Positions 15,526-20,358 of a DNA stretch of 35,639 nt are shown here, piece by piece. Numbering within the stretch: the first letter of the stretch is position 1; the number at the start of each line of letters is the position of its first letter. The DNA lies in assembly GCA_025999935.1 (NCBI GenBank), contig BNXY01000027.1, forward strand, positions 1 through 35,639, written 5' to 3'. The position numbers and the translations under genes were made by a program. The DNA is from Bacteroidia bacterium (GTDB taxonomy: Bacteria; Bacteroidota; Bacteroidia; Bacteroidales; Azobacteroidaceae). The notes under the pieces are model-generated. The model made no database searches, was not told the origin of the DNA, and saw only the letters and a program-made list of their open reading frames with translations.

Positions 15526-15564
15526 ATATCGCCCGACAGAAATAGTTATTCTGCCGGGCGATAT
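15526..15564. terminator. Hairpin terminator between convergent genes (GC-rich CCCGnCAG stem)
   Basis: ATATCGCCCGACAGAA (15526-15541) pairs with TTCTGCCGGGCGATAT (15549-15564) with one mismatch. Read on the minus strand it ends in TTTTATTT, so it best serves the minus-strand gene at 15567, and it may also stop the convergent carboxyltransferase transcript. A near copy lies at 17506-17544. Confidence 0.8.
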
Positions 15565-15566
15565 AG

Positions 15567-16130
15567 TTAATCGGGCAAAGTGGGGAGTTCTACTTCATGC
15601 CTCCAACCAAGCATCAGATAATTGAGCTTTTTACCCTCCGCAGTGGGCGTAACCCAGATATTGGCCTTTAGTTCCGTTTCGATTTTGCGATAGACGGACA
15701 CCGGAATGGTCGCATATTTATCTGTTTTATGAAAATTAAAATTAACTTCGATTACCTTTCCTGTATTGGAGTCTATAATTAAAGTGATGCCAAAACTCTC
15801 TCTCCGAACTCGTCCTTTTTCACTGTTAGAAAAAGCATTGTTGACAATGGAATAGCATGTTGCCCGTGTCCAAGTTTCCGTGTCGAATGCGTCATTAGAA
15901 CCATCATAATTGTAAGTATGATCCGTGCCTTTATAATACATATGCGTATAAGTAAATTGATTACTTTTGTTATAGAGAGTTACCATGTTTGATGTTGCGA
16001 TATCGCATTGATAAGTATATCCGTTTTCATTAAACGTTTTTGTCGCATTGTAATAATACGTTTGTGCTACTGTTCTATTTTGGATAAAGAACAGGCTAAT
16101 AAATACTAATAATGTTACGATTCGTTTCAT
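15567..16130 (-). CDS. Secreted protein of unknown function, type A, copy 1
   Basis: I do not recognise the family. The protein has 187 residues with a signal peptide (MKRIVTLLVFISLFFIQNRTVAQ), so the mature form is exported. The frame is open 44 codons further upstream, but the start at 16130 matches the paralogue exactly in length and signal sequence, and a promoter lies just upstream of it. The mature protein is polar and beta-rich in look (TYYYNATKTFNENGYTYQC, then FGITLIIDSNTGKVIEVNFN). It is about 90% identical to the protein at 17547-18110, with changes concentrated after the middle (for example NFNFHKTDKYATIP versus YFRFTKTNKFATIP). It is the last member of the A-B-B-A set downstream of the HExxH lipoprotein. 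Confidence 0.8.
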   Translation of the reverse strand: MKRIVTLLVFISLFFIQNRTVAQTYYYNATKTFNENGYTYQCDIATSNMVTLYNKSNQFTYTHMYYKGTDHTYNYDGSNDAFDTETWTRATCYSIVNNAFSNSEKGRVRRESFGITLIIDSNTGKVIEVNFNFHKTDKYATIPVSVYRKIETELKANIWVTPTAEGKKLNYLMLGWRHEVELPTLPD

Positions 16131-16161
16131 ATTATGGACATATTTTGCAAAATAATATCTG

Positions 16162-16192
16162 CAAATATAAGTATTTCTATCTTCTTTTTCAA
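16162..16192 (-). promoter_or_regulatory. Promoter of type A copy 1
   Basis: On the minus strand, TTG (16192-16190) and TATATTTG (16169-16162) are separated by 20 nt, matching the Bacteroidota form. The -7 box lies 31 nt before the ATG. The stretch from this box to the ATG is repeated almost unchanged upstream of type B copy 2. Confidence 0.75.
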
Positions 16193-16211
16193 ATTTAAAG
16201 AGGGAAGAAAA

Positions 16212-16246
16212 ATCGCCCGGCAGAAACAATTGCTCTGCCGGGCGAT
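16212..16246 (-). terminator. Terminator of type B copy 1
   Basis: ATCGCCCGGCAG (16212-16223) and CTGCCGGGCGAT (16235-16246) form a perfect 12-bp stem. On the minus strand it runs into a T-rich tail (TTTTTCTTCCC). The same CCCGGCAG stem is used at 15526 and 17506. Confidence 0.8.
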
Positions 16247-16295
16247 AAAATATTAGAAACACAATAGAAAATAGAAAATCTATTTTCTACTTTTC

Positions 16296-16805
16296 TCATT
16301 TATTTTTATAAGTGTTTCTATAAACACTATCCTTTAAAGAAATAAATTCTATTGACTTGATAGTCGCATCGGAATAAAATTCTTCAACTTCTTTTGTAAA
16401 ATGGCCTCTGTACTTTTGAGTTAAACCTAAAGCCTTTTCAAAAGGTTTACTTTCTTCAAAATATATAACTGTATAGGGAATGAACAGATGATGCTTCACT
16501 GCAAAATCCTGAGCTTGCATTGTGATAAAATGTACCCTTAGTCCAAAAACCTCTTGTGGATATTGTTTCTGGAAATCATATATCATCTGTACTTCAATTC
16601 CTTTTGCGCCATATTTATCCACCAATTTTAAAAACTCCGAAAACGGTTTGTTTATACAATTGTCTGCCTCTTTCTCGGCAAGTTTAAGGCAGGGAACAAT
16701 ACTGTCATAAAGGGTTTTGTACTCTTCTACAGTCTCTATTATTTGTGCATTGCAAACGGATGCAAATACGCTTAAAATGATTATCAGTTTTACGATTCGT
16801 TTCAT
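16296..16805 (-). CDS. Secreted protein of unknown function, type B, copy 1
   Basis: I do not recognise the family. The protein has 169 residues with a signal peptide (MKRIVKLIIILSVFASVCNAQ). The mature part is predicted helical and charged, with a Cys pair in SIVPCLKLAEKEADNC that could form a disulfide in the periplasm, and a segment EVFGLRVHFITMQAQDFAVK. It is about 95% identical to the protein at 16924-17433; differences cluster at the C terminus (SVYRNTYKNK versus SAIRNTNKNE) and in AQDFAVKHHL versus ARDFAVKHRL. It has its own promoter and terminator. Its position in the A-B-B-A set links it to the lipoprotein and type A proteins. Confidence 0.82.
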   Translation of the reverse strand: MKRIVKLIIILSVFASVCNAQIIETVEEYKTLYDSIVPCLKLAEKEADNCINKPFSEFLKLVDKYGAKGIEVQMIYDFQKQYPQEVFGLRVHFITMQAQDFAVKHHLFIPYTVIYFEESKPFEKALGLTQKYRGHFTKEVEEFYSDATIKSIEFISLKDSVYRNTYKNK

Positions 16806-16824
16806 ATTCTTTATTATTTGACAA

Positions 16825-16855
16825 CAAATATAAACCTTTTTGAAGATAATTGCAA
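16825..16855 (-). promoter_or_regulatory. Promoter of type B copy 1
   Basis: On the minus strand, TTG (16855-16853) and TATATTTG (16832-16825) are separated by 20 nt. The -7 box is the same as at the other two promoters of this set, but the flanking sequence differs. Confidence 0.7.
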
Positions 16856-16890
16856 ATAATATTGACAGAATACTGTTGTGAAAAAATTAG

Positions 16891-16922
16891 CCGCCCCAAT
16901 GTCTGACATTGGGGCGGTTTTT
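16891..16922. terminator. Terminator after type B copy 2 (perfect 13-bp stem)
   Basis: CCGCCCCAATGTC (16891-16903) and GACATTGGGGCGG (16905-16917) are exact complements around one base. T runs follow on both sides (TTTTT on plus; CTAATTTTTTC on minus), so it can work in both directions. It lies directly after the stop codon of the minus-strand gene at 16924. Confidence 0.8.
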
Positions 16923-16923
16923 C

Positions 16924-17433
16924 TCATTCATTTTTATTGGTGTTTCGGATAGCGCTATCCTTTAAAGAAATAAATTCTATTGACTTGATAGTCGCATCGG
17001 AATAAAATTCTTCAACTTCTTTTGTAAAATGGCCTCTGTACTTTTGAGTTAAGCCTAAAGCTTTTTCAAAAGGTTTACTTTCTTCAAAATATATAACTGT
17101 ATAGGGAATGAACAGACGATGCTTCACTGCAAAATCCCGAGCTTGCATTGTGATAAAATGTACCCTTAGTCCAAAAACCTCTTGTGGATATTGTTTCTGG
17201 AGATCATATATCATCTGTACTTCAATTCCTTTTGCGCCATATTTATCCACCAATTTTAAAAATTCCGAAAACGGTTTGTTTATACAATTGTCTGCCTCTT
17301 TCTCGGCAAGTTTAAGGCAGGGAACAATACTGTCATAAAGGGTTTTGTACTCTTCTACAGTCTCTATTATTTGTGCATTGCAAACGGATGCAAATACGCT
17401 TAAAATGATTATCAATTTTACGATTCGTTTCAT
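16924..17433 (-). CDS. Secreted protein of unknown function, type B, copy 2
   Basis: This is the 169-residue near-identical paralogue of the protein at 16296-16805, with the same signal peptide and Cys pair. Few residues differ between the copies and the differences are scattered, so the duplication looks recent or maintained by gene conversion. Its own promoter is at 17465-17494 and its own terminator at 16891-16922. The upstream 40 bp are shared with type A copy 1 rather than with type B copy 1, which shows that copies have been shuffled by recombination. Function unknown. Confidence 0.82.
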   Translation of the reverse strand: MKRIVKLIIILSVFASVCNAQIIETVEEYKTLYDSIVPCLKLAEKEADNCINKPFSEFLKLVDKYGAKGIEVQMIYDLQKQYPQEVFGLRVHFITMQARDFAVKHRLFIPYTVIYFEESKPFEKALGLTQKYRGHFTKEVEEFYSDATIKSIEFISLKDSAIRNTNKNE

Positions 17434-17464
17434 ATTATGGACATATTTTGCAAAATAATATCTG

Positions 17465-17494
17465 CAAATATAAACATTTTCCGATTCTACTCAA
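17465..17494 (-). promoter_or_regulatory. Promoter of type B copy 2
   Basis: On the minus strand, TTG (17494-17492) and TATATTTG (17472-17465) are separated by 19 nt. The sequence from the -7 box to the start codon is the same as upstream of type A copy 1. Confidence 0.75.
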
Positions 17495-17505
17495 AACCAA
17501 ATAAA

Positions 17506-17544
17506 ATATCGCCCGGCAGAAATAGTTATTCTGCCGGGCGATAT
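17506..17544. terminator. Terminator after type A copy 2
   Basis: ATATCGCCCGGCAGAA (17506-17521) and TTCTGCCGGGCGATAT (17529-17544) form a perfect 16-bp stem. On the minus strand it runs into TTTTATTT. It is a copy of 15526-15564, and the flanking sequence on both sides is duplicated too. Confidence 0.85.
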
Positions 17545-17546
17545 AG

Positions 17547-18110
17547 TTAATCGGGCAAAGTGGGGGGTTCTACTTCATGCATCCAACCAAGCATCAGATA
17601 ATTGAGCTTTTTACCCTCCGCAGTGGGCGTAACCCAGATATTGGCCTTTAATTCCGTTTCGATTTTTCGATAAACAGATACCGGAATGGTAGCAAATTTA
17701 TTTGTTTTAGTAAATCTAAAATAAACTTCAATAACCTTTCCCGTACTGGAATCTATAATCAAAGTGATGCCAAAGCTATCTCTCCGAACTCGTCCTTTTT
17801 CACTGTTAGAAAAAGCATTGTTGACAATGGAATAGCATGTTGCCCGTGTCCATGTTTCTGTGTCGAATGCGTCATTCGAACCATTGTACCGGTAAGTATG
17901 ATCGGTACCTTTGTAATACATATCCGTATAAGTAAATTGGTTACTTTTGTTATAAAGTGTTACCATGGTAGATGTAGCAACATCGCATTGGTAAGTGTAT
18001 CCGTTTTCATTAAACGTTTTTGTCGCATTGTAATAATACGTTTGTGCTGCTGTTCTGCTTTGGATAAAGAACAGGCTAATAAATACTAATAGTGTTACTC
18101 TTGTTTTCAT
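17547..18110 (-). CDS. Secreted protein of unknown function, type A, copy 2
   Basis: This 187-residue paralogue of the protein at 15567-16130 has a signal peptide (MKTRVTLLVFISLFFIQSRTAAQ). It starts only 3 bp after the stop of the HExxH lipoprotein gene, with no promoter of its own in between, so the two are almost certainly translated from one mRNA. That tight coupling is the best clue to a joint role. A 16-bp terminator follows directly after its stop. The family is not recognised; the mature protein begins TYYYNATKTFNENGYTYQC and has several Thr/Tyr-rich strands. Confidence 0.85.
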   Translation of the reverse strand: MKTRVTLLVFISLFFIQSRTAAQTYYYNATKTFNENGYTYQCDVATSTMVTLYNKSNQFTYTDMYYKGTDHTYRYNGSNDAFDTETWTRATCYSIVNNAFSNSEKGRVRRDSFGITLIIDSSTGKVIEVYFRFTKTNKFATIPVSVYRKIETELKANIWVTPTAEGKKLNYLMLGWMHEVEPPTLPD

Positions 18111-18113
18111 AAT

Positions 18114-19613
18114 TCAACAATCTTTAGATAATGTTTGTAAATATTTGAAATTATCAGTCCCTTTTCTGTTGGCATCATATTTGTAGTCATTTGCGTTATA
18201 AACATTTTGGCCGCTTCCATTTTTATAATTGCGAAACGCTGTTATCACATCGTTTTTTAGATAATTATCTAAACCGGTGGAAGTTTGTCCACTATTCAAA
18301 ACTCCTTTGGCATTAATATACGTATCTATACCAACAATAGCGTTGAGAAGAGGATCCTTGGTATACCATTCGGCCCATTTGCTATTTGTTTTGTATTCCG
18401 GTTGGCTTTTAATATACAGATATTGTGCATAATGCGCTTCGATTTCCATATTTATTTTTGCGTTATAAAACGGTGGATTTGTTTCTTGAGCATGTTGGTA
18501 GGCATGCCACATTTCATGAAAAAAATAATTGCTCTCCGAGTTGTTGCCGAACACAAAAGCATTATTCAAATAACTAAAAATAGCGCCACTACTTCCCGAA
18601 TCGAACGTTATGGAATACGATTTCCCATTAGCCGATAACGCGGCGTACAATTTATTTCCCACGCAATCTTTTAATATTTTATTCAGCCAATCCTCTACCT
18701 TTTTCCATTGAGCATCTGATAAATTGCCATTTTTGAAAAGCGCTTTTGCTTTTGGGGCGCTGTATCCATTCTCGTTACCGCCGCCATTACCCCCGCTTCC
18801 GCCTCCACCTATGTACAATCCTTCTCCTCCGTCGCCTCCATTGCCTCCATCGCCTCCATCACATCGGGAATAACAGTAATATTCATATACATAAGTATTC
18901 GGCATGATAACAACCTCCCTCTCTGCCACATAACTATTATTTATTGTAGTTATATATGACAGCACACACCACGAATCACAATACGGTGCAGTTCTTAATT
19001 CGAGCTTGGGAGAATCGTCGTTCGGGTTGGAAACCGTGTACAGTTTTCCATCTTTGTAGCCCCAGCCATTCACAAAATCCCCATCCAAATTATGAAAAAG
19101 GATATGACCTGTAAATTTTTTGTCTCTTTCCAAATAATAATTTTGTTTGAATGGTTCGAATTTTGTTGATTCCAAATAAGCCAAATCCGGTATGATGGTC
19201 ATTAGAAATCCATCAGTCTCATTTGTTTTCCGATTTTTTCGCGTTATCAAACGGGTAATTGACTTCAAATAACGGGAATCTTGTGTTTCGTCAAACTTTT
19301 CCTTACTCTCTGTGTCGAAAAAACCGAATCCTCTGTTTGAAGCAAGCCCAACCTCTACCGTTTCATAATCTTTATCCTTTTTTGTATAAGACCTCGTCCA
19401 GTTGGGTTTTACCTTTATTTTTGAATCCTTACCACCGGCTCTTAATTCAATAGCCGCGCCTTTCAAGTTTGACTCATACCATTGCTGAGCCTCCGATACC
19501 GTCAATTGCCCGTCGTCTTGATCCAACAAATCATGTTCATTGATGCAGGCATAAACTATTCCGGCCAAGCAGAATAGTAGAATTGCTTTTTTAATAATCG
19601 AATCTTTCTTCAT
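18114..19613 (-). CDS. Lipoprotein with Gly-rich hinge and HExxH zincin-like C-terminal domain
   Basis: This 499-residue protein has a lipoprotein signal (KKAILLFCLAGIVYAC, lipid Cys23) followed by acidic residues, so it may reach the cell surface. Residues about 30-225 form an N-terminal domain (SEAQQWYESNLKG, MTIIPDLAYLEST, FTGHILFHNLDGDFVNGW) of a kind I recall at the front of other Bacteroidota lipoproteins with differing C termini. Residues about 245-285 are a Gly/Asp-rich hinge. Residues about 290-499 hold HEMWH (His366, Glu367, His370) and a downstream MEIEAHYAQ segment whose Glu390 or Glu392 could be the third zinc ligand. A peptidase role is likely but the target is unknown. The type A gene follows after 3 bp. 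A far-upstream promoter would give a leader of about 270 nt. Confidence 0.85.
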   Translation of the reverse strand: MKKDSIIKKAILLFCLAGIVYACINEHDLLDQDDGQLTVSEAQQWYESNLKGAAIELRAGGKDSKIKVKPNWTRSYTKKDKDYETVEVGLASNRGFGFFDTESKEKFDETQDSRYLKSITRLITRKNRKTNETDGFLMTIIPDLAYLESTKFEPFKQNYYLERDKKFTGHILFHNLDGDFVNGWGYKDGKLYTVSNPNDDSPKLELRTAPYCDSWCVLSYITTINNSYVAEREVVIMPNTYVYEYYCYSRCDGGDGGNGGDGGEGLYIGGGGSGGNGGGNENGYSAPKAKALFKNGNLSDAQWKKVEDWLNKILKDCVGNKLYAALSANGKSYSITFDSGSSGAIFSYLNNAFVFGNNSESNYFFHEMWHAYQHAQETNPPFYNAKINMEIEAHYAQYLYIKSQPEYKTNSKWAEWYTKDPLLNAIVGIDTYINAKGVLNSGQTSTGLDNYLKNDVITAFRNYKNGSGQNVYNANDYKYDANRKGTDNFKYLQTLSKDC

Positions 19614-19775
19614 AAATAACGTGTTTAAAGTTAATAATATTGTGTATGTTTCTCAAATACAGTTATTTTTTTTGCAACAAAGAGCGACTTAATTATACGT
19701 TTATCTATCTATCAATTTTTTTTTATACCTTTATAGCGTTTTTAAACAGAAAACAGAACCTGCAAATTTCTCCTT

Positions 19776-19792
19776 GTGATATTATATATCAC
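19776..19792. promoter_or_regulatory. Dyad GTGATAT-TAT-ATATCAC, possible operator
   Basis: A perfect 7-bp inverted repeat with a 3-nt centre lies between the XRE gene and the lipoprotein gene. Its size and symmetry fit a homodimeric HTH regulator site. It lies inside the predicted lipoprotein leader. A second inverted repeat (ATTTATATT 19910-19918, AATATAAAT 19931-19939) surrounds the -33 element of the minus-strand promoter. Confidence 0.45.
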
Positions 19793-19807
19793 TGATTTGG
19801 AGGGTAT

Positions 19808-19841
19808 TCTTTGCCAATCTTTTTGGTAAAGAGGTTTTTTT
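19808..19841 (+). terminator. Intrinsic terminator on plus strand inside the divergent intergenic region
   Basis: TCTTTGCCAA (19808-19817) pairs with TTGGTAAAGA (19823-19832), with one G-U pair on the plus strand, a 5-nt loop, and GGTTTTTTT after it. No annotated plus-strand gene ends here, so it would close an unannotated short transcript or shield the region. I see no clear plus-strand promoter upstream. Confidence 0.5.
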
Positions 19842-19895
19842 AATATGTACGTTCTGTATTTTTTTGAGTTTTTATATGTTTTTAGAATTACAGCA

Positions 19896-19926
19896 CAAAG
19901 ATAAATACAATTTATATTATATGCAA
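19896..19926 (-). promoter_or_regulatory. Promoter reading toward the HExxH lipoprotein
   Basis: On the minus strand, TTG (19926-19924) and TATCTTTG (19903-19896) are separated by 20 nt, an exact Bacteroidota match. A transcript from here would have about 270 nt of leader before the lipoprotein ATG. The 19614-19971 gap otherwise holds the dyad at 19776, the hairpin at 19808 and AT-rich sequence; a weaker TGTATTTG element lies nearer to the lipoprotein start. Confidence 0.6.
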
Positions 19927-19971
19927 ATAAAATATAAATAAATTTTACATATACTTTGTATTTTTTGTTAT

Positions 19972-20358
19972 ATGGCTGAAAATGAGCGACTAAAAAAAGT
20001 GATTTTTTGGTTAATAAGCCAAGGAATTGTTAAGACACAAGAAGATTTAGCATTCCAATTGGGGTATAACCCTTCTTCTGTATCTCAAATAGTTACAGGA
20101 TTAAAACCTTTGTCGAAAAAATTTGCCAACAAAATCGGCAAATTCTCTGATAAGATAAATATAAATTATCTTTTTGGCGAGGGAGAAATGTTAATAGAAA
20201 ATTACCATGGAGAATCTAAAACAACTTCTTTAACAGAAGTTCAACCCAATGAAATAACAATTCTTTTGCAAATCATCCAATCTCAACAAAAACAATTGGA
20301 ATCTCAACAAAGAACCATAGAAATATTAGTTGGAACAATTGGAAATAAAAAAGAGTAG
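19972..20358 (+). CDS. XRE-family (phage-repressor-like) DNA-binding regulator
   Basis: This is a 128-residue protein. Residues about 8-65 fit a helix-turn-helix of the XRE/Cro type (VKTQEDLAFQLGYNPSSVSQIVTGLKPLSKKFANKI), followed by ININYLFGEGEML, a tail commonly seen in Bacteroides-phage-type repressors. The last 35 residues (IIQSQQKQLESQQRTIEIL) look like a Gln-rich coiled coil for dimer or higher assembly. The gene is divergent from the HExxH lipoprotein and its promoter region overlaps that of the lipoprotein, so it probably controls that locus and itself. A near -7 element (TATACTTTG, spacing off by one) lies 14-22 nt before the ATG. It ends 7 bp from the convergent histidine kinase gene. 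Confidence 0.85.
   Translation: MAENERLKKVIFWLISQGIVKTQEDLAFQLGYNPSSVSQIVTGLKPLSKKFANKIGKFSDKININYLFGEGEMLIENYHGESKTTSLTEVQPNEITILLQIIQSQQKQLESQQRTIEILVGTIGNKKE

Follow-up and report, generated by a model that had tools for sequence, protein, structure and literature searches.

Among described toxin systems, the nearest in concept to the locus reported here is SitA/SitI of myxobacteria, in which a lipoprotein with a conserved N-terminal part and variable C-terminal domains is encoded with a cognate immunity gene (PMC5562445; articles are cited here for parts of their text). Here we describe a locus of a Bacteroidia bacterium (Azobacteroidaceae; assembly GCA_025999935.1) on a stretch of 35,639 nucleotides (contig BNXY01000027.1, the whole of which we call the window), where the gene of a 499-amino-acid lipoprotein is followed by four small genes of two types in the order A-B-B-A. 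Comparison with relatives makes it likely that this is a polymorphic toxin-immunity locus of Bacteroidia. It has the listed features in common with SitA/SitI. However, SitA tails are typically nuclease-like and are delivered by TraAB outer-membrane exchange, whereas the window family has peptidase-like tails (HExxH...E in the window itself) and Bacteroidia hosts. SitA has no significant homologues outside Myxococcales according to its authors (PMC5562445).

BcpT of Phocaeicola, also a 499-amino-acid predicted surface lipoprotein, has the gene of its immunity protein BcpI just downstream. It is plasmid-borne, BcpI is a 57-amino-acid lipoprotein, and it is comparable to the window locus by description only; the portion of the account considered mentions no tail swapping (PMC9308784). 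Searching plasmids by tblastn with P0001, P0064, P0008 and P0027 gave no match, in a collection not known to contain the BcpT plasmid. Fab1/RFab1 of Bacteroides fragilis, in which a 50-kDa protoxin gives rise to a secreted 28-kDa C-terminal form, likewise has downstream and orphan immunity genes; Fab1 is described as a single protein without recognisable domains, and again the likeness is by description only (PMC8406203). In these portions of the 2022 and 2021 reports, respectively, the killing mechanism or target of BcpT and Fab1 is unknown. Classical polymorphic toxins share with the window family swappable C-terminal domains, HExxH metallopeptidases, HxH JAB domains and adjacent immunity genes; their 2012 catalogue includes Tox-JAB, Tox-MPTase and papain-like toxin domains, but its Tox-JAB-1 is linked to RHS proteins and the lipoprotein Imm65, unlike the window family (PMC3482391). 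Finally, strings of non-identical, recombining immunity paralogues such as the window array are known for esaG and tipC, which belong to the type VII secretion system of Firmicutes and are comparable by description only (PMC9484751).

The genes and lipoprotein parts of the window locus, transcribed in the order lipoprotein, A1, B1, B2, A2, are as follows.

18114..19613, minus strand: predicted polymorphic toxin, a 499-amino-acid lipoprotein with N-domain, disordered linker and zincin-type tail (open reading frame, relatives, model)
19545..19613, minus strand: signal peptide with lipobox IVYAC and Cys23, then acidic residues (by eye; relatives compared)
18972..19541, minus strand: N-domain, common to lipoproteins with different tails (profile span, relatives)
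18993..18995, minus strand: Arg207, where N-domain and linker meet, a candidate cleavage site of an Arg-specific C11 protease (R in 37 of 41 rows, 4 gaps)
18117..18758, minus strand: zincin-type (HExxH...E) tail, residues 286-499, predicted toxin domain (relatives, motif, alignment)
18504..18518, minus strand: HEMWH motif, residues 366-370 (sequence, alignment); predicted third ligand Glu392 at 18438-18440
17547..18110, minus strand: A1, DUF5043 (PF16446), predicted cognate secreted immunity protein (Pfam, adjacency, start 3 nucleotides past the toxin stop)
16924..17433, minus strand: B1, predicted to be an orphan immunity protein, of the type that accompanies JAB tails (homology, profile comparison)
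16296..16805, minus strand: B2, paralogue of B1 (homology, identity, profile comparison)
15567..16130, minus strand: A2, second DUF5043 gene (Pfam, identity)

Comparison with relatives establishes tail swapping, tail-specific downstream partners, duplication and decay in this family. A search with residues 22-230 of the lipoprotein matched 13 proteins. Three of them carry a zincin tail of the window type (P0001, P0002 and P0059, the sequence of the last stopping before the end of its tail) and ten, judged by eye, a different one: EExxH zincin-like in P0058 and P0063, HxH in P0056 and P0060, JAB-like in P0057 and P0061, SprT-like with its own HExxH in P0062 (Pfam 0.0038, below the cut-off), and of no clear kind in P0055, P0064 and P0065. 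We take the HxH tails to be JAB/JAMM domains, the P0064 tail to be papain-like and that of P0055 to be helical. P0040, a relative of the window lipoprotein, is a further case with a JAB tail. In P0059, P0060 and P0061, N-domains that are 74.7-76.2% identical are joined to three unrelated tails (21-26%). The N-domain is thus a conserved part joined to swappable C-terminal tails, the arrangement that defines polymorphic toxins, and we infer that it serves trafficking. A sequence-only reading of this DNA had proposed a polymorphic effector locus with an exported multidomain effector, and had suggested looking for N-domain homologues with other toxin-like tails; tail swapping together with tail-specific downstream genes supports the proposal. 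The swapping runs in both directions, as the N-domain profile matched 7 of 14 zincin loci, the zincin tail also sitting on other N-termini, and 6 of 9 places with JAB tails (this profile and those for A, C, D and F were built partly from proteins that they then label). A second type of N-terminus, with a motif like FIxxFVxxYGYPLW (by eye), carries zincin or JAB tails in L109, P0041, L013, L016 and P0030.

All parts of the lipoprotein named in that reading, an N-terminal domain, a Gly-rich hinge and a HEMWH tail, are present according to open reading frame, lipobox, model and motif. As in BcpT and Fab1, a signal peptidase II (SpII) signal is followed by acidic residues past the lipid cysteine (CINEHDLLDQDD, by eye; here and elsewhere signal peptides and lipoboxes were assigned by eye, with no signal-peptide predictor behind them). 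Two or three acidic residues occur among the six past the cysteine in 22 of 33 rows of relatives; in the other 11 rows, the window's included, the script picked an earlier cysteine. The linker is Gly-rich, with a predicted local distance difference test (pLDDT) score below 50 at residues 197-204, 206-215 and 219-283. No Pfam family matched the window lipoprotein above the cut-off, and the metallopeptidase families Tox-MPTase4 and Peptidase_M91, which gave no match to it, detected 1 and 2 of 41 relatives, at best at 2.9e-4 and 3.1e-3. HEMWH is more than a chance motif, because HExxH was found in 41 of 42 related proteins (the window's own counted) and H366, E367, H370 and E392 are invariant across a 41-protein alignment. 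A type VI secretion system (T6SS) effector was considered and rejected: such effectors are not known to have a Sec signal, and the window protein starts with the signal peptide of a lipoprotein (by eye); no T6SS search of the genome was made.

The predicted partner of the zincin tail is A. The sequence-only reading could name no family for A or B. This holds for B, which has none above the cut-off, but A belongs to Pfam DUF5043 (PF16446; 147.9 bits for A2 and 145.7 bits for A1, gathering cut-off 25 bits). A zincin-profile scan of the species-genome collection yielded 14 loci, and in all 14, as in the window, an A gene lies directly behind the zincin tail, with gaps of -4 to +3 nucleotides. In seven of them (L009, L011, L012, L017, L018, L020, L022) a second A follows the first, with another small gene between the two in L017. 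The toxin gene is broken in L013, L021 and one copy of L017. Because the A profile was built from those same genes, Pfam DUF5043 provides an independent check on adjacency; it recovered the A gene next to the zincin in 12 of 13 genomes surveyed and its tandem paralogue in L020 (the genome of L009 was left out). In the reverse survey, DUF5043 occurred on 18 contigs of 13 genomes, 14 with a zincin directly upstream, one with a zincin relic (L034), one at a contig end and two as orphans (L051, L042). The matches of G009, which is from the genus of the window genome, coincide in position with those of G438, from which L015 comes. Provided that the locus is of the polymorphic toxin-immunity kind, these comparisons make A very probably the immunity protein of the zincin tail. 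We found no mention of DUF5043 in the literature searched, which mostly excluded subscription papers; the part of the main text of PMC13288982 considered does not contain "DUF5043", "PF16446" or "lipoprotein".

The four small genes are two pairs of paralogues, as had been read from the sequence, with signal peptides (by eye) and with A1 starting 3 nucleotides after the lipoprotein stop. A1 and A2 are 90.4% and B1 and B2 95.9% identical, and the copies are DNA duplications (300-nucleotide blocks at 93% and 95%). With ratios of non-synonymous to synonymous substitution (dN/dS) of about 0.17 for the A pair and about 0.24 for the B pair, both copies of each look maintained. For A2, the most likely start codon is the ATG at 16130, which gives 187 amino acids as in A1, and not the GTG of the listed 231-amino-acid frame.

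B behaves differently from A. A search with the B protein gave 12 matches, one being the window's own; B occurred in its own genome only among 45 genomes of its family, and had four further, weak matches among 393 genomes of the order. One of these, a gene of G349 (151 of 172 positions, E 0.0024), immediately follows the gene of an N-domain lipoprotein with a JAB tail; the remaining three are short stretches within other genes. Among 101 genomes, 8 had JAB tails, at 9 places in all; a gene of a family defined in this analysis as F follows at 8 of these places, and an F gene also stands behind the JAB tail of L097. That locus belongs to the window's own genus (G008), where the JAB-tailed version survives in two broken pieces with its F gene. 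Since the F profile was built from those proteins, the JAB/F evidence is adjacency together with subgroup relations (hhalign E-values of 4.6e-13 for F1-F3, 1.7e-12 for F1-E and 2e-6 for F1-F2). With signal peptides removed, B matched the pooled F profile at 5.4e-7 and F1 at 1.5e-6, vs 0.55 for A, 0.16 for C and 0.36 for D (all hhalign values are single-pair figures not calibrated against a database, which limits the case made here). A vs C gave 5.6e-7, and the next lowest among A, B, C, D and F was A-D at 0.025. Because the B profile matches JAB-paired F and not A, C or D, and the G349 gene lies behind a JAB tail, B1 and B2 most likely encode orphan immunity proteins directed at JAB tails, a reading that we regard as probable. 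Of the earlier proposal that A and/or B inhibit the lipoprotein, the part on A is supported, with DUF5043 behind the zincin tail at all 14 loci, and the part on B is probably wrong, as B looks like immunity against JAB tails. In the same way, the expectation that A and B track only the zincin version holds from zincin to A (14 of 14) and probably fails for B, which groups with the JAB-paired family.

Other tail classes have partners of their own. Family C stands behind the EExxH tails of L089 and L091, and four genes of family D follow the HTHFPLTY tail of L094. EExxH zincin-like tails, with Glu for the first His of HExxH, recur in L089, L091, L093, L029 and L033 as well as in P0058 and P0063; downstream are C genes in L089 and L091 and A genes in L029 and L033.

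Decay is seen in the genome of the window itself. Its contig C7 (L006) holds a relic made up, in this order, of the start of the lipoprotein gene, the start of the zincin region and the end of a DUF5043 gene, a deletion relic that keeps the gene order of the window locus, and contig C4 (L005) has a lone DUF5043 piece. Elsewhere, partner genes occur without a toxin (L051, L042, L090), the toxin relic of L034 has kept two DUF5043 genes, and in L112 (1501-1905 and 1997-3198) a C-terminal JAB piece on its own, with two further F genes after it, lies behind a complete JAB-F set, which may be likened to an orphan toxin cassette. N-domain-only genes without linker or tail occur in L090 (6605-7282), L091 (3487-4137), L095 (3221-3898) and L015 (2254-2904), with an A, C or D gene within about 1.2 kb in three of the four cases; L015 and L091 share one genome. 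At the level of sequence, orphan partners, toxin relic, N-domain-only genes and lone JAB piece complete the picture of a polymorphic toxin system.

How the tail might be released is suggested by Arg207. At the border of N-domain and linker, R followed by S, T, G or A was found in 33 of 39 border regions vs 17.2 expected by shuffling. An Arg near residue 58 is less conserved (R in 18 and K in 6 of 41). A C11 peptidase match is present in the window's genome. C11 proteases cleave BcpT behind LTR, at R65 and R199, its C-terminal fragment 200-499 being thought to be the toxin (PMC9308784), Fab1 is cut by fragipain at R200-A201 (PMC8406203), and CDCL toxins are also cut after TR by fragipain and DpnB (PMC11169675). 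Because the border Arg recurs, as in the C11-protease-activated BcpT and Fab1, proteolytic release is plausible, although by analogy we put release by a C11 protease at Arg207 at slightly short of an even chance.

In the mechanism that we propose, the lipoprotein would be a surface-anchored protoxin made of a common N-domain, a linker and a swappable C-terminal tail. The window's tail, a predicted zinc-peptidase-like (HExxH...E) domain, would harm related cells, acting in their periplasm or at the surface. A1 would be its co-translated secreted immunity protein and A2 a spare copy, and B1 and B2 would be orphan immunity against the JAB tail class of the same lipoprotein family. A and B may each neutralise their tail by binding to it, and the tail could be freed by a cut at Arg207, made by an Arg-specific C11 (fragipain-like) protease. 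Taken together, protoxin, A as immunity and B as orphan JAB immunity have a good likelihood.

A number of observations weigh against this explanation. The reverse survey (A to zincin) is weak and largely circular, since 13 of its 14 positive contigs carry the very loci through which their genomes were selected; the five contigs that did not select a genome comprise one intact zincin (G441:C171), one relic, one cut and two orphans. Among 393 genomes of the order, DUF5043 matched in five (the window's own, G118, G074, G005 and G298), and only G118 tests the A-to-tail pairing, with a related tail upstream of A on three contigs (EExxH in two of the three) and a fourth contig cut by its end; G074 is cut by a contig end, the G005 match is family C and that of G298 is unrelated. 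The pairing of tail and partner is not one-to-one, because EExxH tails have an A gene as partner in G118 and a C gene in L089 and L091. As to B, two unrelated matches have better E-values (5.6e-4 and 8.7e-4) than G349, comparisons with F2 (0.0095), F3 (0.13) and E (0.076) alone are weak, and the JAB-like tail of L110 lacks HxH and has no F gene behind it. A Foldseek search gave no match at E <= 0.001, the Arg207 column sits in a poor part of the alignment, and toxicity, binding, localisation and cleavage are predictions.

The rival that survives best, though improbable, is a peptidase at the cell surface that serves nutrition or self-processing and has dedicated secreted inhibitors or chaperones; A would silence the enzyme during export. 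Many Bacteroidales surface lipoproteins serve nutrition, and a signal peptide on A (by eye) and a start 3 nucleotides past the enzyme gene would suit such a role. However, it leaves unexplained why 75%-identical N-domains carry unrelated tails, why partner families are tail-specific and occur without the enzyme, and why B groups with another tail class. Still less probable is the simplest form of the sequence-only reading, in which A and B would both be immunity proteins for the zincin tail. All four genes do lie in one array behind the toxin gene, but terminator-like hairpins separate A1, B1, B2 and A2 from one another, the B profile matches the JAB-paired family, and in the 14 zincin loci it gave one match at E <= 1e-3 (49 positions, L014), on the opposite strand of another gene. 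A role of A and B in peptide processing by the lipoprotein, as its substrates or partners, would suit small secreted proteins beside a peptidase-like gene, but it is very improbable given that the model shows B as a single folded domain (mean pLDDT 85), A matches its Pfam domain over the full length and each tail class has its own partner family.

Other features of the window lie within or beside the predicted toxin-immunity locus.

17506..17544, minus strand: terminator-like hairpin 3' of A1, repeated at 16212-16246 and 15526-15564
16889..16919, strand undefined: terminator-like hairpin in the B1/B2 interval (hairpin scan)
19972..20358, plus strand: divergent helix-turn-helix (HTH)/XRE-like open reading frame, a neighbour gene (open reading frame, weak HTH_3 match)

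The hairpin is repeated at 9 sites vs 3.1 in shuffles (sd 1.7), one of them 3' of A2. The G+C fraction is 0.315-0.374 in the four 1-kb stretches of 16001-20000 and 0.374-0.494 in the remaining 31. The divergent regulator exists as an XRE-like open reading frame, but its description as phage-repressor-like is not established because the HTH_3 match is 19.1 bits, below the 23-bit cut-off; none of the other loci compared gave a match to it at E <= 1. Near the lipoprotein genes of 16 of 38 sources scanned (L009, L010, L012, L015, L017, L018, L021, L089, L091 and L033 among them, with tetratricopeptide repeats in L017 and L089), and not in the window, there is a Wzy_C membrane protein of the O-antigen-ligase type, which might modify the toxin. 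A second large secreted protein ("TG") occurs in 11 of 38; for both counts, profiles were built partly from the same loci and some sources share a genome.

A wider reading, to which we give an even chance, is that Bacteroidia own a general class of weapon, of which BcpT and Fab1 would be single instances. These would be surface lipoprotein protoxins with a common N-domain, a site for release by a C11 protease and tails that can be exchanged and mostly resemble proteases (zincin, EExxH zincin-like, JAB and other HxH, SprT-like and others). Each class of tail would have its secreted immunity families (A, which is DUF5043, C, D and B/F), and cells would stockpile immunity genes against rival tails. 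Such a class is not described as such in the literature searched, where none of the titles and abstract openings listed for lipoprotein polymorphic toxins of Bacteroidetes gives an account of this family; the lipoprotein carrier, DUF5043, B/F, C and D were not found in parts of the tables and of the JAB and immunity sections of PMC3482391. If Arg207 is a fragipain-type site, the family would be linked to BcpT and Fab1. Through the comparison, DUF5043 and several nameless families acquire a function that can be tested, and the window, with apparent immunity against two tail classes side by side, is a directly testable case of stockpiled resistance. It suggests that Bacteroidia may have, besides the T6SS, a lipoprotein-based polymorphic weapon whose payload would be peptidase-like domains, not nucleases.

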